Positions 7,988-17,321 of a DNA stretch of 32,618 nucleotides are shown here, in pieces. The DNA lies in assembly GCF_000276605.1 (NCBI RefSeq), contig NZ_AKJX01000125.1, positions 1 through 32,618 of the forward strand, given 5' to 3'. This DNA is from Acidovorax sp. CF316 (GTDB taxonomy: Bacteria > Pseudomonadota > Gammaproteobacteria > Burkholderiales > Burkholderiaceae_C). Numbering within the stretch: the stretch's first letter is position 1; every line of letters starts with the position of its first letter. A program made the translations under genes and the position numbers. The notes beneath the pieces were generated by a model. It was not told the DNA's origin, did not search any database, and saw only the letters and a program-made list of their open reading frames with translations.

Positions 7988-8599
7988 TCAAACCTTCACG
8001 GCGGCCTCTTGGGGCTCTCCGAGGGACAGCATCAGCCGGTTGGCCCAGTTGAAGAAGGCCGCGCCGTGCAGCGCGTCCGAGATCGCGAAATCGTCCAGCC
8101 CCTGGTCGCGCAGCGCCGTGATGTGTTCGGTGCCGAAGTCCAGGGGGGTGTCCGTGAGCGCCACCGATGCCTGGGTGATCGCATTCCAGCGCGGGCCCAG
8201 GTCGGTGTCCGTGCCTTCGTCGAGCAGGCGCTGCACATCGTCCGCGCGGCCCGAGAAATGCGCGGCGAAGCGCGCATGCACCGAGGCGCAGTAGATGCAG
8301 CCGTTGTGGCGCGAGGTGGCAGTGGCCGACAGCTCGCGCTCGGCGCGCGGCAGGCCGGCGTCGGGGTTGTAGAAGATGTCCTTGTCGGTGCGGGTGCGGG
8401 CGCCCAGGATGTCGGGGTCGCGCGCCAGCAGCATGAAGTAGGGCGACTTGGCGCGCGCTGCGTCCACCAGGCCGGCCAGGTGGCGGTCGGTCAGCTCGGC
8501 CTCGGGCAGGGGTGCAAGCCAGGGCAGCCAGTTGAGCTGGGCCTGCGTGAAGGCCACCGGTTCCTGGCTGCCTGGGTGCGAAAGGGTGGTATCGCTCAT
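7988..8599 (-). CDS. Alkylhydroperoxidase (AhpD/CMD fold) protein, Avi_7169-like
   Basis: This 203-residue protein contains the AhpD catalytic pattern HNGCIYCASVHARF, with C101 and C104 as the redox pair and H108. AhpD-fold enzymes reduce peroxides by way of this CxxC or act as carboxymuconolactone-decarboxylase-like catalysts. Its place as the last gene after a second CMD protein and a luciferase-like monooxygenase matches the Avi_7169 family neighbourhood (TIGR04030, from memory). The start overlaps the upstream stop as ATGA. A role removing peroxide made by the flavin monooxygenase, or acting directly on its product, is inference. Confidence 0.85.
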   Translation of the reverse strand: MSDTTLSHPGSQEPVAFTQAQLNWLPWLAPLPEAELTDRHLAGLVDAARAKSPYFMLLARDPDILGARTRTDKDIFYNPDAGLPRAERELSATATSRHNGCIYCASVHARFAAHFSGRADDVQRLLDEGTDTDLGPRWNAITQASVALTDTPLDFGTEHITALRDQGLDDFAISDALHGAAFFNWANRLMLSLGEPQEAAVKV

Positions 8600-9267
8600 G
8601 CCTGTGTCTCCTCACTGGATGGGGTGGTGGTGCGTGGGACCGGCGCGGCGGCCAGGGCGCGCAGCCCGGCCACCACGCGGATCTGGAACGCCAGGAAGGC
8701 GATCAGCTGCGACAGGGTCACGATGTCGGTCGTGCCCCAGCCCGCGTCGAGCAGCGCCTGCAGCGCGGCCGGGCTGGCGTCGCGTGGGTGGAAGGTGAGC
8801 AGGTGCGCGTGTTCGAGCGCAGCCGACAGCGGCTTGCCCAGCACGGCGCGCTGTACCTCGCCCACGGTGTAGGCCGGGCCGGCCTGGTCTTCTTCGCTCA
8901 GCGGGCCGGGCGGGTAGCTGCCATAGGGGCCGTTGGCCGCGCCGCGCACCACCTCGGCCGCGATGGCCTGGGGCACGCCGGGGCGGGCCTGGCGTGCTCC
9001 TTCGGAGGCCAGCGCGGCGTTGTAGAAGGCCGTGGCATCGGGCTGCTGGTGCAGGCCGGCCACGAAGGCCGCCACGGCCTGGCGGTCGGCCAGGGTGAAA
9101 CGGCTTCCGGGCAGCAACTGCGCCGGCTCGAGCAGGGCCAGGTGGCTTTGCTGGGCGTGGGTGCGCGCCTGCAGGCGGTGGCGGCGGATGGTGTCGAGCC
9201 GGTCGCCCGGCTGGATGCCGGCGAGCAGGTCGATCACGTCGGGTGCGGTGTTGGCAGCTTGGGTCAT
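8596..9267 (-). CDS. CMD domain protein, Avi_7170-like
   Basis: This 223-residue protein is related to the carboxymuconolactone decarboxylase/AhpD fold, best seen in the C-terminal half (HPRDASPAALQALLDAGWGTTDIVTLSQLIAFLAFQIRVVAGL). It has no CxxC pair, unlike its downstream neighbour, so it cannot do classical AhpD thiol chemistry. Such Cys-less partners are paired with Avi_7169-type proteins (TIGR04029, from memory). It overlaps both neighbours by ATGA, which suggests fixed stoichiometry and perhaps a heteromeric complex with the AhpD-like protein. Confidence 0.82.
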   Translation of the reverse strand: MTQAANTAPDVIDLLAGIQPGDRLDTIRRHRLQARTHAQQSHLALLEPAQLLPGSRFTLADRQAVAAFVAGLHQQPDATAFYNAALASEGARQARPGVPQAIAAEVVRGAANGPYGSYPPGPLSEEDQAGPAYTVGEVQRAVLGKPLSAALEHAHLLTFHPRDASPAALQALLDAGWGTTDIVTLSQLIAFLAFQIRVVAGLRALAAAPVPRTTTPSSEETQA

Positions 9268-10400
9268 GCGGGCTCCGTGATGGGTTGGAGGTGGGGGGCG
9301 CGGGGCGTGGCCGCGGGCGGGTGCCGCGGCACCCAGCCCAGGGCGGGCGCCACCGCGGTGGCCGTGAGCTCGATGGAGCGCAGGATGGCCGCGTGCGGCG
9401 GATCGATGGAATGCACCTGGAACACGAGATCGGTCACGCGCTCGAGCGTGGTGTCGGCGCGCAGCGAGGCGATCACGTCCTCGGGCGTGCCCAGGTGCAC
9501 GTCGTAGGCGGCGATCAGCTGTTCCAGCGGTGCATCGGGGCCCAGCCGGGGCGCGGTACCCGACTTGGCGGCCTGCGCTGCGAAGCGCGCGGCCGCGCGG
9601 CGCAGGCCGGTATCGGCCAGGCGCAGCGCCTCCTGCCGGCTGTCGGCCACGAACAGGCTGCGCGAGCCCACGATGCGCGGCGTGCTGCCCGCGGGCAGGG
9701 CAGCCAGATAGGCGTCGACGATGGGGTTCTGGATCTCGGCCAGCGTGGCATGGGGCGCCTCGTCGGGCCGTGGCTGGGTGCGCGAGAGCATGAGCCCGTC
9801 GCCCGCCAGCCCGGCCCGTGTGCCCCCCGCCACGGAGAAGGTGGCCTGCCAGATGCGGCCCAGCAGTTGCCGGCCCGCGGGGTAGAGCGTGTCGCCGCCC
9901 GGCAGGGGTTGGCCGGCCCAGGCGGTGCGCAGCACGGCCAGCTGCCGGTCAAAGATCGCCGAGCGGTCCTCGCTGTGGAGACCGAAGGCCGCGAACGACT
10001 CGGGTGTGCCGCCCGTGCCCACGCCCACCTCGAGCCGGCCGCCCGCGAGCAGGTCGAGCACGATGGCGTCCTCGGCCACGCGCACGGCGTTTTCCAGCGG
10101 CAGGGTGATGATGCCCGTGCCCAGTCGGATGCGGTGGGTGCGCGCCGCCACGTGGGCCAGGAAGACCAGGGGCGAGGGCAGGCCGCCCTCATGCTCGTGG
10201 AAGTGGTGCTGCGCGACCCAGGCCGCGTCGAAGCCCAGGGCCTCGGCATGGGCGATCTGCTCGGCCACCAGGCGGTAGCGCTCGCCCGCCGGGGCGTCGT
10301 CAAGCAGCCTGCTGAAGAAGCCCAGGCGCTTCGGACCCGGCGTGGTGGTGGGTGTCGTGGATGGGGTGGAGGGCACGGTCGTTGTTCCTTGGGGCGGCAT
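9264..10400 (-). CDS. Luciferase-like FMN-dependent monooxygenase, KPN_01858-like
   Basis: The 378-residue protein has the bacterial luciferase TIM-barrel signatures: KRLGFFSRLL at the first strand, DAAWVAQHHFHEHEGG with the conserved His pair, RLGTGIITLPLENAVRVAEDAIVLDLLAGGRLEVGVGTG, and a C-terminal HLGTPEDV segment. These enzymes use FMNH2 and O2 to hydroxylate substrates or cleave C-S and C-N bonds; no flavin reductase is encoded nearby. The substrate is unknown. The ATG at 10400 places the first 34 codons over the 3' end of the ATPase gene. A GTG at 10376 is an alternative; either way the low-complexity Thr/Pro lead before KRLGFF is unusual. Confidence 0.85.
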   Translation of the reverse strand: MPPQGTTTVPSTPSTTPTTTPGPKRLGFFSRLLDDAPAGERYRLVAEQIAHAEALGFDAAWVAQHHFHEHEGGLPSPLVFLAHVAARTHRIRLGTGIITLPLENAVRVAEDAIVLDLLAGGRLEVGVGTGGTPESFAAFGLHSEDRSAIFDRQLAVLRTAWAGQPLPGGDTLYPAGRQLLGRIWQATFSVAGGTRAGLAGDGLMLSRTQPRPDEAPHATLAEIQNPIVDAYLAALPAGSTPRIVGSRSLFVADSRQEALRLADTGLRRAAARFAAQAAKSGTAPRLGPDAPLEQLIAAYDVHLGTPEDVIASLRADTTLERVTDLVFQVHSIDPPHAAILRSIELTATAVAPALGWVPRHPPAATPRAPHLQPITEPA

Positions 10401-12021
10401 GGCCGGGGATGGCGTTGATGAGTTCGCGCGTGTAGTCGCTGCCGGGCGAGAGGAACACGTCCTGCACGCGTCCCGCGTCCACCTGGCGGCCGGCCTGCAG
10501 CACCGAGACGGTGTCCGCGATCTGGCGCACCACGGCCAGGTCGTGCGAGATGAAGAGGTAGGTCAGCGCCAGGTCGCGCTGCAGCTGGTCGAGCAGCGCC
10601 AGGATCTGCGCCTGCACCGTCACGTCCAGGGCCGAGACGGCTTCGTCGAGCACCAGCACCTGCGGGCCCAGCACCAGGGCGCGCGCAATCGCCACGCGCT
10701 GGCGCTGCCCGCCCGAGAGGGCGCGCGGCGGGCGCTGCAGCACGGCCGGCGGCAGGCCCACGCGCGCCAGGATGTCGTGCACGCGGCGCTCGCGCTCGGC
10801 CCGGGCGATGGGCTCGAAGTTGAGCAGCGGCTCCTCGATGATCTGGTAGACCGTCTGGCGCGGGTCCAGCGAGCTGAAAGGGTTCTGGTGCACCAGCTGG
10901 ATGCGCCGACGCACCTGGCGCAGCGCCTCGCCGCGCAGCGTGGTCAGGTCCACCCCCTCGACGAGGATGCGGCCGGCCGTGGGGCGCGCAAAGCCCACCA
11001 CGTCGCGGATGGTGGTGGTCTTGCCCGAGCCCGATTCGCCCACCAGCGCATGCGTGGTGCCGCGGCGCACCTGGAACGACACGCCGTTGACCGCGCAGAA
11101 CGGCTGCCGCTGCCCCGCCACCGGGAACTCGTGCACCAGCCCTTCGACGGCAATGGCGATGTCCTGCGGCCCGTCGGCCGAGCCCGCAGGCGCGCGGCGG
11201 AAGCTGCCCGCCGAGAGCGAGGGCGCATCGGCCAGCAGCTGGCGTGTGTAGGCGCTTTGCGGCGCGCGCAGCAGCGCCTGGGTGGGGCCCTGCTCCTGGA
11301 TGCGGCCGCCCTGCATCACCACCAGCCGGTCCGCCCGGTCGGCCGCCACGCCCAGGTCGTGGGTGACCAGCAGCACGGCAGTGCCGTCCTCGCGGCGCAG
11401 CCCGTCGATCAGGTCCAGGATGCGCCGCTGCACGGTCACGTCCAGCGCGCTTGTGGGCTCGTCGGCAATGATGAGGGCTGGGCGCAGCGCGATGGCGATG
11501 GCGATCAGCACGCGCTGCTTCATGCCGCCCGAGAGCTCGTGTGGGTACTGGCGCGCGCGCAGCGCGGGCTGGGACAGGCCCACGCGCTCGAGCAGCTCCA
11601 GCACGCGTGCCGCGATGGCGCGGCGGTCGCCACGGCGGTGGATTTGGAGGATCTCGCCCACCTGTTCGCCCACGGTACGCACGGGGTTCAGCGAGCTGGT
11701 CGGGTCCTGGGGGATCAGGCTCACCACGCTGCCGCGGATGCCGTCCAGGCGCTTTTGCGGCCAGCCGGCGATGTCGGTGCCGTTCAGGCGGATGGCGCCG
11801 TGTTCGAGCCGGCCGTTGTCGGCCAAAAGGCCGATCACGGCCTGGGCCGTGGTGGTCTTGCCCGAGCCCGACTCGCCGACCAGCGCCACGACCTCGCCGG
11901 GCGCGATGGAGAACGAGACGCCGTGCACTACGCGCTGCGCGTGCTGCTGCTCGTCGTGGTAGGCAATGGCCAGGTCCTCGACCTCGAGGACCGGCGTGGG
12001 GAGGGGAGGGCTAGTGCTCAT
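10300..12021 (-). CDS. Fused double ATP-binding subunit of a peptide-type ABC transporter
   Basis: The 573-residue protein joins two complete ATPase domains as a DppD-DppF-type fusion. The first has Walker A GESGSGKTT at residues 49-57, signature LSGGMKQR and Walker B LIIADEPTSALD. The second, starting near residue 300, has GESGSGKTTTI, LSGGQRQR and LVLDEAVSALD. It should energise the two permeases encoded just upstream. The ATG at 12021 overlaps the permease stop as ATGA. The C-terminus runs about 30 residues past the usual ELINAIPG end, into the monooxygenase reading frame, and ends His-rich (DTHHHAG). Confidence 0.92.
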   Translation of the reverse strand: MSTSPPLPTPVLEVEDLAIAYHDEQQHAQRVVHGVSFSIAPGEVVALVGESGSGKTTTAQAVIGLLADNGRLEHGAIRLNGTDIAGWPQKRLDGIRGSVVSLIPQDPTSSLNPVRTVGEQVGEILQIHRRGDRRAIAARVLELLERVGLSQPALRARQYPHELSGGMKQRVLIAIAIALRPALIIADEPTSALDVTVQRRILDLIDGLRREDGTAVLLVTHDLGVAADRADRLVVMQGGRIQEQGPTQALLRAPQSAYTRQLLADAPSLSAGSFRRAPAGSADGPQDIAIAVEGLVHEFPVAGQRQPFCAVNGVSFQVRRGTTHALVGESGSGKTTTIRDVVGFARPTAGRILVEGVDLTTLRGEALRQVRRRIQLVHQNPFSSLDPRQTVYQIIEEPLLNFEPIARAERERRVHDILARVGLPPAVLQRPPRALSGGQRQRVAIARALVLGPQVLVLDEAVSALDVTVQAQILALLDQLQRDLALTYLFISHDLAVVRQIADTVSVLQAGRQVDAGRVQDVFLSPGSDYTRELINAIPGHAAPRNNDRALHPIHDTHHHAGSEAPGLLQQAA

Positions 12022-12971
12022 GGTCGGCCTTTCGCGATGGCCGCGCTGATGCGGTTGGCCGAGAGCACCACGGCCACCACGACCACGCCGGGCACGGTGG
12101 TGAGCCACCAGGCGGTGGAGATGTAATTGCGCCCCTCGGCGATCAAGAGGCCCCATTCAGGCGTGGGCGGCGGCGCGCCATAGCCCAGGAAACCCAGCGT
12201 GGAGATGGACAGGATGGCCGAGCCGAACTGCAGCGCCGCCATGGCGATCACCGAAGTGAGCGAATTGGGCAGCACATGGCGCCACAGCACGGCACTGAAG
12301 CGCCCGCCGCTGCCGAAAGCCGCCTCCACATACTCGGTGCGGCGCACGCGCACCACCTCCGAGCGCACCAGCCGCGCGAAGGTCGCGACCGAGGCCACGC
12401 CCACGGCGATGGCCGCGTTGATGGTGCCAAAGCCCAGGATGATGATGATGGACAGCGACAGCAGCAGCGGGGGCACGGAGAGCAGCACGTCCACCGTGCG
12501 CATGAGGGCGTCGTCCACCCATCGGCCCACCGAGCCCGCGACCAGGCCCAGCAGCGTGCCCAGCACCAGGCCCACGGCCACGGCCACGAAGGCACCGGAG
12601 AGCGAGTGCACGGCTCCATGCACCACGCGGGCGTAGACGTCGCGGCCCAGGGCGTCGGTGCCCAGCCAGTGCGCGGCGCTCGGCCCCTGCAGCTGGTGGC
12701 CGGCCGTGCCCTGGATGGGGTTGTGGCCCGTGAACAGGCCCGGCACCAGCGCCCACAGTGCCACCAGGGCGATCACCGCCCAGGCGAGCAGCAGCGTGGG
12801 CGGCGTGGCGCGCAGCGCGCGGGTACTGCGTGCCAGGAGCGACACAGGTGCCGCGTGGGGCGCCGAGGATGCGGGCGATACCGCAGCCACGCGCTGGAGG
12901 GCCGGTGCGGCCGAGGAGGGTGCGGGCGCTGCCAGCAGGCCATCGCCTGCGGTGTGTGCGTGGGTGGTCAT
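12018..12971 (-). CDS. ABC transporter permease (DppC-like)
   Basis: This 317-residue inner-membrane subunit has an Ala-rich cytoplasmic lead of about 65 residues, a first transmembrane helix (LLLAWAVIALVALWALVPGL), and the SAAHWLGTDALGRDVYARVVHG motif that marks DppC/OppC proteins. The coupling-helix (EAA-like) region follows the EYVEAAFGSGG segment. It pairs with the DppB-like permease, whose gene ends three bases upstream. The N-terminal extension is longer than usual for the family and low in complexity. Confidence 0.92.
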   Translation of the reverse strand: MTTHAHTAGDGLLAAPAPSSAAPALQRVAAVSPASSAPHAAPVSLLARSTRALRATPPTLLLAWAVIALVALWALVPGLFTGHNPIQGTAGHQLQGPSAAHWLGTDALGRDVYARVVHGAVHSLSGAFVAVAVGLVLGTLLGLVAGSVGRWVDDALMRTVDVLLSVPPLLLSLSIIIILGFGTINAAIAVGVASVATFARLVRSEVVRVRRTEYVEAAFGSGGRFSAVLWRHVLPNSLTSVIAMAALQFGSAILSISTLGFLGYGAPPPTPEWGLLIAEGRNYISTAWWLTTVPGVVVVAVVLSANRISAAIAKGRP

Positions 12972-12974
12972 GGG

Positions 12975-13916
12975 TCAGGTTCCAGGGGCGTGGCGCAACC
13001 GTGGGTCGAGCACGGGGTAGAGCAGGTCCACGGCCAGGTTGATGAGCACGAAGGCGGTGGCCGAGAACACCACCACGGCCTGCAGCACGGCCGTGTCCTG
13101 GTTGCCCACCGCCTGCTGGGTCAGGCTGCCCAGGCCGTTCAGGCCGAAGACCGCCTCGGTCACCACGGCACCGGCCAGCAGCTCGCCGAAGAGCACGCCG
13201 GCGATGGTCAGCGTGGGCAGCAGTGCATTGCGCGCCACGTGCTTCCACAGCACCCAGTGGCGCGTGGCGCCCTTGGCACGCGCCACCGCCACGAAGGGCT
13301 GGGTCAGCACCTCGTCGATGTTGCGCAAGAGGATCTGCGCCAGCGGCGCCGAAATCGGGACGGCAAGGGTCAGCGTGGGCAGCACCAGCCCTTCCCAGCG
13401 ACCGGGGTTGATCACCGGGACCCAGCCCAGGCGGAAGGACACGACCTGGATCAGCATGATGCCCAGCCAGAACACCGGCACCGAGACGAACAGCGAGGGC
13501 AGCGACTGCAGGACCGAGCGCAGCCAGCGCAGCGGCGCCAGCTGCGCCGCGAAGGCCAGTGCCACGGCCAGCAGCAGGGCCGTGGCAAAGCCGAAACTGG
13601 CCAGCCGCAGGGTGGGTGGCAGGTTGGTGGCCAGGCCCTGGCTGACAGGGACGCCGGCCTGCACCGAATAGCCGAAGTTGCCCGTGAGGAAGCCGGTGAG
13701 GCTGTGCAGGTACTGGCGCCACACGGGCGTGTCGGCCCCATAGGAGGCGCGGATGTCCGCGATCTCCTGCGGGCCCAGGGCGAACTCGGGACTCAGGAAC
13801 TTGATCAGGATCGCATCAGCCGGCAGCAGCTGCAGCAGCACGAAGGAGGCCGTGAAGGCCGCCCAGAGCACCAGCAGGGCCTGGCCGATGCGGCGCGCGA
13901 GGTAGGGCAGGTTCAT
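12975..13916 (-). CDS. ABC transporter permease (DppB-like)
   Basis: This 313-residue permease begins MNLPYLARRIGQALLVLWAA and has about six transmembrane helices. GNFGYSVQAGVPVSQGLATNLPPTLRLA is the conserved DppB/OppB periplasmic segment, and VARAKGATRHWVLWKHVARNALLP is the ATPase-coupling loop. It forms the membrane channel with the DppC-like protein. Its gene starts 30 bases after the binding-protein stop, and the downstream permease begins three bases after its own stop. Confidence 0.93.
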   Translation of the reverse strand: MNLPYLARRIGQALLVLWAAFTASFVLLQLLPADAILIKFLSPEFALGPQEIADIRASYGADTPVWRQYLHSLTGFLTGNFGYSVQAGVPVSQGLATNLPPTLRLASFGFATALLLAVALAFAAQLAPLRWLRSVLQSLPSLFVSVPVFWLGIMLIQVVSFRLGWVPVINPGRWEGLVLPTLTLAVPISAPLAQILLRNIDEVLTQPFVAVARAKGATRHWVLWKHVARNALLPTLTIAGVLFGELLAGAVVTEAVFGLNGLGSLTQQAVGNQDTAVLQAVVVFSATAFVLINLAVDLLYPVLDPRLRHAPGT

Positions 13917-13946
13917 GCTCGTGGTCCTTGACGGCGCCGGTCGTGC

Positions 13947-15623
13947 TCAGGGCTGCTTGCCGACCCAGGTGCCGTAGAAGCTGGGGCGGCCCACGGCCTC
14001 GAAGCCCACGTCACGCACCCAGGGCGCGCCGGCAAAGGCCTGGGGTTCCTCGAACACCGGGATCACATAGGCCTGGTCGATCAGGTAGTTCTGCACCTCG
14101 CCCGCCAGCGCCAGGCGCCTGGCCGGGTCGGTCTCGGCGGCGATGGCGTCGAGCAGGCTGTTGAGCTTGTCGTCGACGAAGCCCTTGACCTTGCTGCTCA
14201 CCCCGCCTTTTTGCAGCAGCACGTTGCGGTTGGTGGGGTAGTAGTTGCTCTTGATCACGTCGGGGTCGGCGCGGCCGACCATGCCGGGCGATACCGGGGT
14301 CTTCTCCGGGTCGAGGTTGTCCACCGTGCGGCTGCCGCTGTCGCCGGCCAGCACGTTGAGCTTGACGCCCACCTTGGCCCACTGCTGGGCGATGAGCTGC
14401 AGGGTCTCCTTGTTCTGCGGCTGGGGCAGGGATTCGTAGGCCGCGAGCACCAGCTCCTTGCCGTCCTTCTGGCGCAGGCCGTTGGCGCCCAGGGTCCAGC
14501 CGGCCTCGTCCAGTAGCTTCTTCGCAGCGGCCTCGTCGTACGCCAGCTTGGCCGACAGGTCCACATAGCCGGCCGCCGTGGAGGCGATGACCGACTTGGC
14601 CTGTGGGTAGTTGGCCGAGAACAGGGTCTGCACGATCTCCTGGGTGTTGGTGGCATGCAGCAGGGCCTTGCGCACCTTGACGTCGGCCACCAGGGCGTTG
14701 TCGGGGCGGAAGACCACGCTGTTGTTCACACCGCGCGTGGAGGGTGCGTAGACCTGGAACTTCTGCTCCTGCACGCGCTTTTCGTCATAGGCCTGCACCT
14801 GGCGGATGAAGCCGGCCTGGCCGGCCAGCAGTGCACCGATGCGCACGCTGTCCTCGGGCGTGACGATGAACTTGACCTCGTCGAGCCGTGCGCGGCCCTG
14901 ATGGGCCAGCTTGGCCGGGCCCCAGGCGTATTCCTTGCGCGCCGAAAGCGTGAGCTCCTTGCCCAGGGTTTCGCTGGTCACCACGAACGGACCGGAGCCG
15001 ATGATCTTGGTGGCGTCGCCCAGCTCTTCGAAGGGCCGCGCCAGCGTGGCCAGCGACACCAGGCCCGAGCCGATCACCGAGGTGCCCTGCAGGAAGCCTG
15101 GCGAGGGCTTCTTGAAGTAGAACTTCACCGTGAGCGGGTCCACCACCTCGCTCTTGTCGTAGTTGTTGATGACCTCCGAGACCGGCAGCTTGAGCTCCTT
15201 GTTGCCCAGGCCGTAGGTGTCGAAATTCCTGGCCACCGCGGTGGCGTCGAGCGGCGTGCCGTCCGAGAAGCTCACGCCCTTGCGCAGCTTGAAGGTGTAC
15301 TCGGTGGCCGTGGCGTTCACCTCCCAGGATTCGGCGATCCAGGGCTGGATCTCCAGCGTCTTGGGGTCCTGGTAGGTGAGCTTGTCGGTGATCTGGTTGA
15401 GCACACCGCCGTTGGGGTAAAAGCCCCCGGCTGGCGGGTACAGGGTGGTGTGCGCCTGCTGCTCCAGGTACACGAGCGTGCCGCCCTGCACGGGGCCGCC
15501 CCCGGCCGCCGCGGTGGACTCCGCTTCCTTCTTGGAGCAGCCGGCCAGCAGCGCGCCGAGCACCAACACCGGGATGCCCACGGCAGCCCAGCCCAACGAT
15601 TTTTTCAGGGGAAACACGTTCAT
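13947..15623 (-). CDS. Substrate-binding lipoprotein of the ABC transporter, KPN_01854-like
   Basis: This 558-residue protein of SBP family 5 (peptide, nickel and related ligands) delivers ligand to the permeases. The start at 15623 gives a lipoprotein signal: MNVFPLKK, a hydrophobic core, and the lipobox LLAGC with the lipidated Cys near residue 29. The mature protein begins with Ser/Ala/Gly-rich linker followed by GGTLVYLEQQAHTTLYP and WIAESWEV. A GAGG sequence lies immediately before the ATG. It is the first gene of a seven-gene operon running to 7988. The match to the KPN_01854 family (TIGR04028) is from memory and rests chiefly on the gene neighbourhood. Confidence 0.88.
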   Translation of the reverse strand: MNVFPLKKSLGWAAVGIPVLVLGALLAGCSKKEAESTAAAGGGPVQGGTLVYLEQQAHTTLYPPAGGFYPNGGVLNQITDKLTYQDPKTLEIQPWIAESWEVNATATEYTFKLRKGVSFSDGTPLDATAVARNFDTYGLGNKELKLPVSEVINNYDKSEVVDPLTVKFYFKKPSPGFLQGTSVIGSGLVSLATLARPFEELGDATKIIGSGPFVVTSETLGKELTLSARKEYAWGPAKLAHQGRARLDEVKFIVTPEDSVRIGALLAGQAGFIRQVQAYDEKRVQEQKFQVYAPSTRGVNNSVVFRPDNALVADVKVRKALLHATNTQEIVQTLFSANYPQAKSVIASTAAGYVDLSAKLAYDEAAAKKLLDEAGWTLGANGLRQKDGKELVLAAYESLPQPQNKETLQLIAQQWAKVGVKLNVLAGDSGSRTVDNLDPEKTPVSPGMVGRADPDVIKSNYYPTNRNVLLQKGGVSSKVKGFVDDKLNSLLDAIAAETDPARRLALAGEVQNYLIDQAYVIPVFEEPQAFAGAPWVRDVGFEAVGRPSFYGTWVGKQP

Positions 15624-15921
15624 ACCTCGTCGCCGCAACGGCAGTCAAAATGGCCTGGAAAACACCGCGGCCCGCCCCATGGCGCGGACCCGGTCCACGC
15701 ATTTCATGGTAGCGACGCTACATAAACGCATCGGTATATAAAGTAGGATCGTTATCTGAAAAACGAGGGTTGGCGCCGCCGGGCGGCATATCTGAAATGC
15801 GCATAAGCGCGCTCGGTTTTCTGGCTTCCCAAGCGCGTGCGGTGGCCCGAACAATGGCCTGACCGTCCGTGATCCGCCCGATGTCAGCGGCGGCGCGCAC
15901 GCATTGGAGAACCGCCGAGCC
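15624..15921. promoter_or_regulatory. Divergent control region between the lipoprotein operon and the OsmC gene
   Basis: This 298-bp gap must hold both divergent promoters. It contains the perfect odd palindrome TAGCGACGCTA at 15710-15720 and an AT-rich stretch (ATAAACGCATCGGTATATAA, 15722-15741). The 9-mer TATCTGAAA occurs twice in direct orientation at 15753-15761 and 15789-15797, 36 bp apart. These are plausible regulator sites. No regulator gene adjoins, and I could not assign -35/-10 boxes with confidence. Confidence 0.5.
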
Positions 15922-16500
15922 ATGACCCATCTGAACGACTACCTGGCCGAGAAGCGCGCCGCCGTGCTGGCGCGCCAGACCGCCATCGACGCGGGCACCG
16001 CCCAGCCCGCCGCATTGAAGGCGCGCGTGAGCGCCGAGGGCCGCAGCGGCGTGCGCCGCCTGCGCATCCGCGACCACCAGGTCATCAGCGACAGCCCGCC
16101 CGACTTCGCGGGCTACAACCTGGGGCCGAGCTCGCCCGAGCTGCAGCTGGGCGTGCTGGGTACCTGCGTGACCCACATCTTCCTGATCCACGCGGCCGAG
16201 CGCCAGGTGCCGCTGGAAAGCCTGGAGGTCGAGGTCACCGGCATCATCGACCCGCGCGGCGGCAAGCCCGGCCACGAGTCCACGCCGATCTGGCCGCACG
16301 AGATCGCCTACACCGTGCACATCGACTCGCCCGCGAGCCGCGCCGACATCGATGCCCTGTTCGAGGCGGTGGAGCGCAACTGCCCGATCCTGAACCTGTT
16401 GCGCAACCCGCAGACCATCCGCGCCGAGGTGAAGCTCACCAACTCCAAGGCTGCGGCATCTGCCGCCGCACTGCAAAGCGAAGAGGCGGTGGCCGCATGA
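15922..16500 (+). CDS. OsmC family protein
   Basis: The 192-residue protein has the OsmC/Ohr layout with both reactive cysteines: C82 in LGTCVTHIF and C154 in ERNCPILNLL. OsmC proteins reduce organic hydroperoxides through this Cys pair; one branch acts on sulfur-transfer or other thiol chemistry. The ATG at 15922 has GGAG about 11 bases upstream; a TTG at 15904 is in frame but less likely. It overlaps the VOC gene by ATGA and is transcribed away from the monooxygenase operon, which suggests shared control and a role in handling reactive by-products. Confidence 0.88.
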   Translation: MTHLNDYLAEKRAAVLARQTAIDAGTAQPAALKARVSAEGRSGVRRLRIRDHQVISDSPPDFAGYNLGPSSPELQLGVLGTCVTHIFLIHAAERQVPLESLEVEVTGIIDPRGGKPGHESTPIWPHEIAYTVHIDSPASRADIDALFEAVERNCPILNLLRNPQTIRAEVKLTNSKAAASAAALQSEEAVAA

Positions 16501-17321
16501 GCGCAGGTACTCCCGCCCAAGTCCTGAGCTTGCCGCTGGACCATGTGGTCATCGCGGTCAACGACCTTGACAAGACCATCGCCGACTACCAGGCGCTGGG
16601 CTTCAACGTGTTGCGCGGTGGCGATCACCCCGGCCGGCCCACGCACAACGCCCTGGTGGTGTTTGCCGACGGCAGCTACTTCGAGCTCATCGCCTGGCGC
16701 GAGCCGGCACCCGCCGACCGCTGGTGGCAGCTGCTGCAGCAGCATGGCGAGGGCATCATCGACTTTGCCTTGCTGCCACCGGGCACCGCCACCACCGTGG
16801 CCGCCGCCCAGGCACGCGGCCTGGCGCTGAGCGGCCCGCACGACGGCGGCCGCGTGCGGCCCGACGGCGAACAGCTGCGCTGGCAGACGGCACGCCCGCC
16901 CTCGCCCGACCTGCCCTTCTTGTGCGGCGACCTCACGCCGCGCGCGCTGCGCGTGCCCGAGGGCGATGCCCGCGTGCATCCCAATGGCGCGCTCGGTGTG
17001 GCCAGCCTGTCCATTGCCGTGCACGACCTGCCCGCCAGCCTGGCGCGCTACCGGGCCTTGCTGGGCGAACCACCGCAGGGGGCTCCGGCCAGCCATGCCA
17101 GTGCGGCGGTGGACCTGCCGCACAGCGACGTGCAGGTGGCGCTGGTGCGCGCCGGAGCCGCCACCCTGGTGCTGAGCGCGCCACGCACCGAGGCCGGTCC
17201 GCTGGCCCGGCACCTGGCCACACGCGGGGAGGGGCCCTATGCGCTCGTGCTTGCAGGGGCCCAAGGTGCCACGCAAGTGCTCGATCCGGCACTCACGCAC
17301 GGCGCCCCGATCCGGTTCTGA
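16497..17321 (+). CDS. VOC family (glyoxalase-like) protein
   Basis: The 274-residue protein contains two vicinal-oxygen-chelate units. The first starts LDHVVIAVNDLDKTIADYQALGFNV (residues 13-38) with a following FADGSYFELIAW; the second starts GVASLSIAVHDLPASLARYRALLG near residue 166. The layout fits the glyoxalase-like domain family of uncertain function rather than a true glyoxalase I. Possible metal ligands are H15 and the Glu in YFELIAW. It is coupled by ATGA to the OsmC gene. The substrate is unknown; an isomerase, hydrolase or binding role in the same pathway is possible. Confidence 0.82.
   Translation: MSAGTPAQVLSLPLDHVVIAVNDLDKTIADYQALGFNVLRGGDHPGRPTHNALVVFADGSYFELIAWREPAPADRWWQLLQQHGEGIIDFALLPPGTATTVAAAQARGLALSGPHDGGRVRPDGEQLRWQTARPPSPDLPFLCGDLTPRALRVPEGDARVHPNGALGVASLSIAVHDLPASLARYRALLGEPPQGAPASHASAAVDLPHSDVQVALVRAGAATLVLSAPRTEAGPLARHLATRGEGPYALVLAGAQGATQVLDPALTHGAPIRF

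Follow-up and report, generated by a model that had tools for sequence, protein, structure and literature searches.

Gene content of the locus

In a stretch of 32,618 nucleotides from Acidovorax sp. CF316 (contig NZ_AKJX01000125.1; hereafter the window), we analysed a locus of nine genes. Seven form a minus-strand operon encoding an ABC importer with a substrate-binding lipoprotein (substrate-binding protein, SBP), a luciferase-like monooxygenase (LLM) and two proteins related to carboxymuconolactone decarboxylase (CMD), and two divergent plus-strand genes encode an OsmC-type thiol peroxidase and a VOC protein (Table 1). All nine genes listed in the initial annotation of this DNA were confirmed at this position. 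Its remark that most junctions are 4-base overlaps was overstated, as these occur at three of the six junctions in the operon (permease C/ATPase, LLM/CMD and CMD/CMD). The SBP and permease B genes are separated by 30 bases and the two permease genes by 3 bases, and, taking ATG 10400 as the start of the LLM, the ATPase and LLM genes share 101 bases. A further 4-base overlap joins OsmC to VOC, outside the operon. The most likely start of the SBP is ATG 15623, giving 558 amino acids with the lipobox LLAGC, and that of OsmC is ATG 15922, giving 192 amino acids. The spacer between the divergent units would carry the promoters of both; its conserved stretches are AT-rich and include a possible regulator site. 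The best-matching named locus is that of Acidovorax soli, whose LLM is 90% identical.

Table 1. Features of the locus, with positions in the window and domain or family matches (bit scores against curated cut-offs where given).
Feature	Position	Strand	Match
CMD protein with CxxC and His, AhpD/CMD	7988..8599	-	TIGR04030 (Avi_7169) family, 280 vs 233.15 bits
Cys-less CMD protein, AhpD fold	8596..9267	-	TIGR04029 (Avi_7170) family, 190.6 vs 100.75 bits
LLM, FMN-type	9264..10400	-	TIGR04027 (KPN_01858) family, 549.1 vs 412.9 bits
ABC ATPase, two ATP-binding cassettes	10300..12021	-	PF00005, two stretches
ABC permease C	12018..12971	-	PF00528
ABC permease B	12975..13916	-	PF00528 and PF19300
SBP, lipoprotein, SBP_bac_5	13947..15623	-	TIGR04028 (KPN_01854) family, 876.2 vs 468.5 bits
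Spacer between divergent units	15624..15921	.	Partly conserved in four aligned Acidovorax loci
OsmC-type thiol peroxidase	15922..16500	+	PF02566
VOC protein, Glyoxalase_3	16497..17321	+	PF13468, 136.4 bits

Four of the proteins score above the curated cut-offs of TIGR04027-TIGR04030, which together define the KPN_01854-58/Avi_7169-70 gene set, and the initial annotation had thus correctly named this neighbourhood. The gene order (SBP, permeases, ATPase, LLM, CMD, CMD) is also that of the set, to which the window locus adds the divergent OsmC-VOC unit. These NCBIfam models are hypothetical equivalogs, and no substrate is named for them in the search output. The FMNH2-dependent enzymes SsuD, SfnG and NtaA/DmoA share the luciferase-like fold with the LLM and, in our reading, have sulfur supply in common. 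However, the window system differs from them in its importer and AhpD partners, and the LLM falls short of their family cut-offs: TIGR03565, TIGR04021 and TIGR03860 are all absent from its best 25 of 26 families, the 25th of which scores 19.5 bits, far under the cut-offs. Similarly, the SBP is below the cut-offs for NikA (159.7 vs 393 bits) and GsiB (97.6 vs 594 bits).

Both CMD proteins have the AhpD fold, and one of them carries the redox CxxC motif with its histidine (C101, C104 and H108, present in 95 of 95 aligned sequences), whereas the other has no cysteine at all. In OsmC, the redox cysteines C82 and C154 (numbered from ATG 15922) are found in 31/31 aligned sequences. We also considered a selenoprotein OsmC, as an internal TGA was flagged in two orthologues, but on translation this TGA proved to be the terminator at the C-terminal end, and the idea was dropped; the window OsmC is likewise under the cut-off of the OsmC-related (seleno)protein family NF041052 (47.7 vs 95 bits).

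Conservation of the core and exchange of the importer

We compared 80 named loci chosen by their LLM as the best-scoring of at least 579, a choice that is biased toward close relatives. The full seven-gene core is found in 58 of the 80 and the LLM-CMD-CMD trio in 76, including 18 loci with the trio but no TIGR04028 SBP, which is more than chance association would explain. Absences are weak evidence in short contigs or loci (e.g. L069, L101, L103, L106, L111, L128 and L137), and some genomes apparently appear twice (L042/L077, L142/L080 and L143/L066). In a separate count over the phylum, TIGR04027 is above its cut-off in 16 of 398 genomes, that of Acidovorax sp. CF316 included. Seven of the other 15 have the full core (L039-L042, L048, L050 and L051), seven have the trio without a TIGR04028 importer (L043-L047, L049 and L052), and one (L053) has an LLM without CMD matches. 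This last LLM (positions 9359-10408 of L053; 484.3 bits) lies among apparently phage- or plasmid-like open reading frames (ORFs) in a genome of 2.0 Mb.

Where TIGR04028 is missing, other importers can stand beside the trio: a branched-chain-amino-acid type with PF13458/PF02653 (L043 and L078), another family 5 SBP (L043), or MetQ/NlpA (L045). The constant part of the system is thus the enzyme trio, and the exchangeable part is the transporter, a pattern that fits an imported substrate.

In a Comamonas relative (L080, 2979-6500), two tandem TIGR04028-like SBPs, 77% and 76% identical to that of the window, precede a single importer, which suggests two ligand specificities. In L051 (11775-12932), an M20 amidohydrolase (TIGR01891, above cut-off) is flanked by a fused CMD gene on one side and a VOC gene (PF13468) on the other; M20-type enzymes can strip N-acyl groups, a possible clue to the substrate. 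Tandem LLM relatives scoring 223-255 bits, under the TIGR04027 cut-off, occur in L054 (8985-15689), with LLM pairs also in L056 and L057. Those in L054 have as neighbours a TonB-dependent receptor, an ORF of the SurE family and a further luciferase-like monooxygenase, perhaps forming another uptake-and-oxidise island.

Linkage of OsmC and VOC to the core

The initial annotation had suggested that OsmC and VOC could be a so far unlinked part of the pathway; the co-occurrence test that it set did not refute this, and the link holds. Using a threshold of E<=1e-30 for OsmC, we found TIGR04030 in 7 of 47 genomes of the genus and the window-type OsmC in the same seven, about 8 kb away. In a family sample of 220 genomes, TIGR04030 occurs in five and OsmC in nine, with all five included. 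The hypergeometric probabilities of such co-occurrence are 1.6e-8 (genus) and 3e-8 (family sample), calculated as if the genomes shared no ancestry.

Among the 80 loci, the window-type OsmC is present in 22 and the window VOC type in 24, and all 22 OsmC loci carry both. These 22 are all Burkholderiales-type, with Acidovorax, Delftia, Comamonas and Variovorax titles and one unclassified proteobacterial metagenome-assembled genome (L095). The pair is divergent from the SBP in 15 loci, and upstream on the same strand in three (L086, L093 and L116). In another three (L078, L095 and L107) it is mixed in among further ABC genes ahead of the LLM, and in the last (L080) it is downstream of the trio. 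Linkage retained through these four layouts, and beside either of two importer types, is stronger evidence than a single inherited layout would be. The window-type OsmC was not found in the 46 loci that are not Burkholderiales-type, nor in 12 of the 34 that are; in 10 of these 12 the TIGR04028 importer is missing too. VOC proteins that match PF13468 but belong to other subtypes adjoin the trio in L039, L051, L134 and L152, in the last with a 4-base overlap.

The remaining OsmC orthologues of the family sample, which occur without the core, adjoin sulfur genes in 4 of 4 cases. One (L138) is beside an NtaA/DmoA gene above its cut-off, an SfnB-like protein and a CysB-like regulator, the last two below theirs, and two (L139 and L141) are beside O-acetylhomoserine sulfhydrylase above cut-off. 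The fourth (L140) is beside a VOC gene, an SsuA-family binding protein and a cystathionine beta-lyase above cut-off.

Association of relatives with sulfur metabolism

TIGR04028, TIGR04029 and TIGR04030 are above their cut-offs in Corynebacterium glutamicum and in none of 13 other control genomes. The C. glutamicum operon cg2678-74 encodes a peptide-type ABC importer with a duplicated ATPase and a putative carboxymuconolactone decarboxylase, and its regulator is listed as McbR* (PMC2807442). Its transcription is lower in a cysR mutant (PMC2580772), and cg2678 is repressed by McbR (PMC6892785). Given the likeness in peptide-type binding protein, permease, duplicated ATPase and carboxymuconolactone decarboxylase-like protein, cg2678-cg2674 are presumably the C. 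glutamicum members of TIGR04028-TIGR04030. The locus can therefore be called uncharacterised, as it was initially, only with qualification: its C. glutamicum counterpart is a listed McbR target, and one relative of the LLM has a solved structure and a reported activity (see below).

Sulfur genes also adjoin the trio in other bacteria. CysB-family regulators (NF009327; 413.5 and 444.1 bits vs 402) do so in Variovorax paradoxus VAI-C and L095. Of nine Bradyrhizobium-type trio loci, eight have MetQ/NlpA directly upstream of the LLM (G111, G384, G035, G365, G159, G664 (L110), G666 (L123) and G667 (L124), G335 being the locus without it), and seven of these eight genomes contain no other MetQ. This count covers the trio loci of six genomes of one genus (G335, G111, G384, G035, G365 and G159, Bradyrhizobium-type by likeness) together with L110, L123 and L124; it leaves out the Bradyrhizobium-titled L119, L128 and L137, in which the LLM has no CMD pair and of which the L119 genome has no MetQ. 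In Variovorax, MetQ is inside the locus in L063-L065 and in none of the other Variovorax loci tallied. L111 was kept out of the genome tallies for both MetQ and NtaA/DmoA.

In G1012, an actinobacterial genome whose nearest named proteins are from Microbacterium, the full core lies among NtaA/DmoA-family ORFs (two above the cut-off, and two that are shorter and fall below it) and an ORF resembling a sulfurtransferase, under its own cut-off. Multi-rhodanese sulfurtransferases (raw counts) lie close to the trio in V. paradoxus VAI-C, L071, L080, L086 and L107, and L071 also has a cystathionine beta-lyase above cut-off. In Klebsiella pneumoniae, KPN_01858 and the taurine transporter TauC are at higher levels without added Fe2(SO4)3, which the authors read as a response to iron (PMC7194016); the omission alters sulfate as well. 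As a separate observation, benzothiophene induces a peptide-type ABC importer in Gordonia terrae C-6 that is numbered next to a reduced-flavin monooxygenase (PMC3868597), although family identity could not be shown.

A proposed role in organosulfur scavenging

What we observe directly is the gene content, the retained linkage, the sulfur regulon and sulfur neighbours of relatives, the CMD fusion found in relatives (below) and the conserved redox cysteines. From these we infer a sulfur substrate in this organism, a reaction and roles for the partner proteins. A role of the system in sulfur metabolism is likely, and we give a probability of about 0.55 to the more specific reading that the locus is an organosulfur-scavenging system. 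The initial interpretation as an import-and-oxidise locus for a sulfur- or nitrogen-containing compound is still a fair one, with the sulfur option now better supported by McbR/CysR, CysB, MetQ and the neighbours of OsmC.

The particular chemistry that we propose, consisting of import, C-S cleavage and reduction of oxidised sulfur, is tentative, with the odds somewhat against it. In this scheme, the lipoprotein importer would capture a small organosulfur compound that resembles an amino acid or peptide. The LLM, using reduced flavin from a reductase encoded elsewhere, would oxidise the compound at or next to its sulfur, upon which the C-S bond would break. The two AhpD-fold proteins would act as one sestrin-like pair: the Cys-less half would bind the ligand or do no more than maintain the fold, and reduction of the oxidised sulfur product (a sulfenate or peroxide) would fall to the CxxC half. 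The divergent OsmC could serve as another thiol peroxidase acting on these products, and the VOC protein could have an accessory enzymatic role in processing the carbon fragment. The import step is suggested by the protein families and the oxidation and reduction steps by family chemistry and association, while the order of steps, and the action of AhpD and OsmC on the oxidation product, are what we consider plausible.

Several observations weigh against organosulfur scavenging. The cg2678-74 operon is also reported to be under the control of the heme-responsive HrrA (PMC9491836), and no TIGR04027 LLM above cut-off was found in C. glutamicum, which means that the importer and CMD pair can occur without it. 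The sulfur markers that we probed are present in only 6 of 44 alphaproteobacterial loci, and the OsmC link is limited to one order. No binding protein could be assigned to the conserved stretches of the SBP-OsmC spacer, and no regulator site was identified there. NtaA/DmoA genes show no enrichment around the trio; they were set aside as a linked gene, being present in many copies per genome and near the trio in three of the 80 loci (L080, L111 and L131) and in L149 and L147. On a Paracoccus denitrificans plasmid (L148) the trio is in a sarcosine oxidase/betaine-type locus, which might hint at a sulfur betaine, and in Terrarubrum it is beside hydantoinase and GMC genes. Finally, the one characterised LLM relative, PCX02514 of Klebsiella sp. 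PCX (PDB 8k74; E 1.8e-116), is reported to shorten poly(acrylic acid) and to use NADPH, with FMN or FMNH2 giving no support for the reaction (PMC11354265).

Alternative explanations

The main alternative within sulfur scavenging is that the AhpD pair and OsmC only clear peroxide leaked by reduced-flavin enzymes in a thiol-short cell. In its favour, there are AhpD and OsmC proteins whose redox cysteines are intact, and in L107 the trio is followed by a peroxiredoxin above its cut-off (213.9 vs 211). Furthermore, of all Ca. Pelagibacter ubique transcripts, the one that rises most under sulfur limitation encodes an OsmC protein, not necessarily akin to that of the window (PMC5069961). However, the CMD pair follows the LLM in nearly all of the 80 loci, which is tighter than general protection needs, and the Cys-less protein is retained as a fusion partner, so we regard this explanation as rather unlikely. 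Quite improbable is a system that degrades a nitrogen compound, for instance a betaine or hydantoin, and has sulfur genes beside it only by chance. The Paracoccus locus, which has a ring-hydroxylating dioxygenase and a glycine betaine binding protein as well as sarcosine oxidase, and the Terrarubrum locus speak for it, and L052 also has a GMC gene. It would nevertheless leave McbR/CysR regulation in C. glutamicum, the CysB-family neighbours, the linkage to MetQ and the sulfur neighbours of OsmC to coincidence.

The activity of PCX02514 could also be taken to mean that the LLM is an oxygenase for poly(acrylic acid) or other carboxylate chains. The two proteins belong to the same family, and of the five residues in the proposed PCX02514 pocket, four (R10, R125, S186 and R187) do not vary across the 12 aligned sequences, while His253 is not conserved by the same count. 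But the poly(acrylic acid) activity is one reported for PCX02514, its reported kcat is 0.00214 per second, its lack of dependence on FMN is unlike its family, and a polymer is ill-suited both to a peptide-size importer and to sulfur regulation. We consider this explanation extremely improbable, and only marginally less so the idea that the importer takes up a metal, or a metallophore, which the enzymes would then help to release its metal. The next best models of the SBP are indeed NikA and CntA (111.2 bits), and KPN_01858 is higher under the iron limitation of PMC7194016. These scores are far under their cut-offs (800 in the case of CntA), though, and other importer types occur beside the same trio. 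Moreover, since iron was given as Fe2(SO4)3, sulfate changed too, and TauC rose together with KPN_01858.

Resemblance of the CMD pair to sestrins

In relatives (e.g. L040 and L051), the two CMD proteins are fused into one gene, with the Cys-less member kept as the fusion partner. A structure model of the fused L040 protein, used in place of the two separate window proteins, has two AhpD-like domains, one redox-active and one not, as does the human stress sensor sestrin. There are also differences: the window pair is encoded by two genes, the DDYDY hinge motif that defines sestrins in PMC11429811 is absent from both window proteins, and the order of domains is different, with the Cys domain second. 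Bacterial double-AhpD look-alikes of sestrins are noted in the same review, in whose excerpts the words sulfur and operon are absent.

We offer, as a speculation that is unlikely to hold, that bacterial sestrin-like AhpD pairs are sulfur-nutrient enzymes. Their Cys-less domain would bind an amino-acid-like organosulfur compound, or the fragment that the monooxygenase releases from it, and would hand the oxidised sulfur over to the partner's CxxC domain. If this is true, the TIGR04027-TIGR04030 operon would be where the bacterial counterparts of sestrin have their function, and the half of sestrin that senses amino acids would recall a ligand-binding half that bacterial sulfur scavenging already had. 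Escherichia coli YciW, a double-AhpD protein (PMC11429811) with a CysB-type site upstream (PMC10821248), would then be a second sulfur-linked case.

Implications

The gene families, the regulation in C. glutamicum and the bacterial sestrin look-alikes are already known. In the literature that we searched, which mostly excludes subscription papers, no paper states the substrate of the operon or reports the OsmC-VOC link. None joins the gene set to C. glutamicum sulfur regulation and the sestrin look-alikes, or an LLM, alkylhydroperoxidase, OsmC and SBP to sulfur. Our analysis gives a testable role in sulfur acquisition to a widespread gene set that bears only hypothetical-equivalog names, and adds OsmC and VOC to it as two extra parts. 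It also offers a structural reason for the unusual Cys-less subunit. Bacterial sestrin look-alikes, so far handled structurally in PMC11429811, gain a genomic context. As soil sulfur is mostly organic (PMC4267179) and the gene set is carried by Acidovorax, Variovorax and rhizobial genomes, its substrate may be an overlooked organosulfur compound of plants or microbes.

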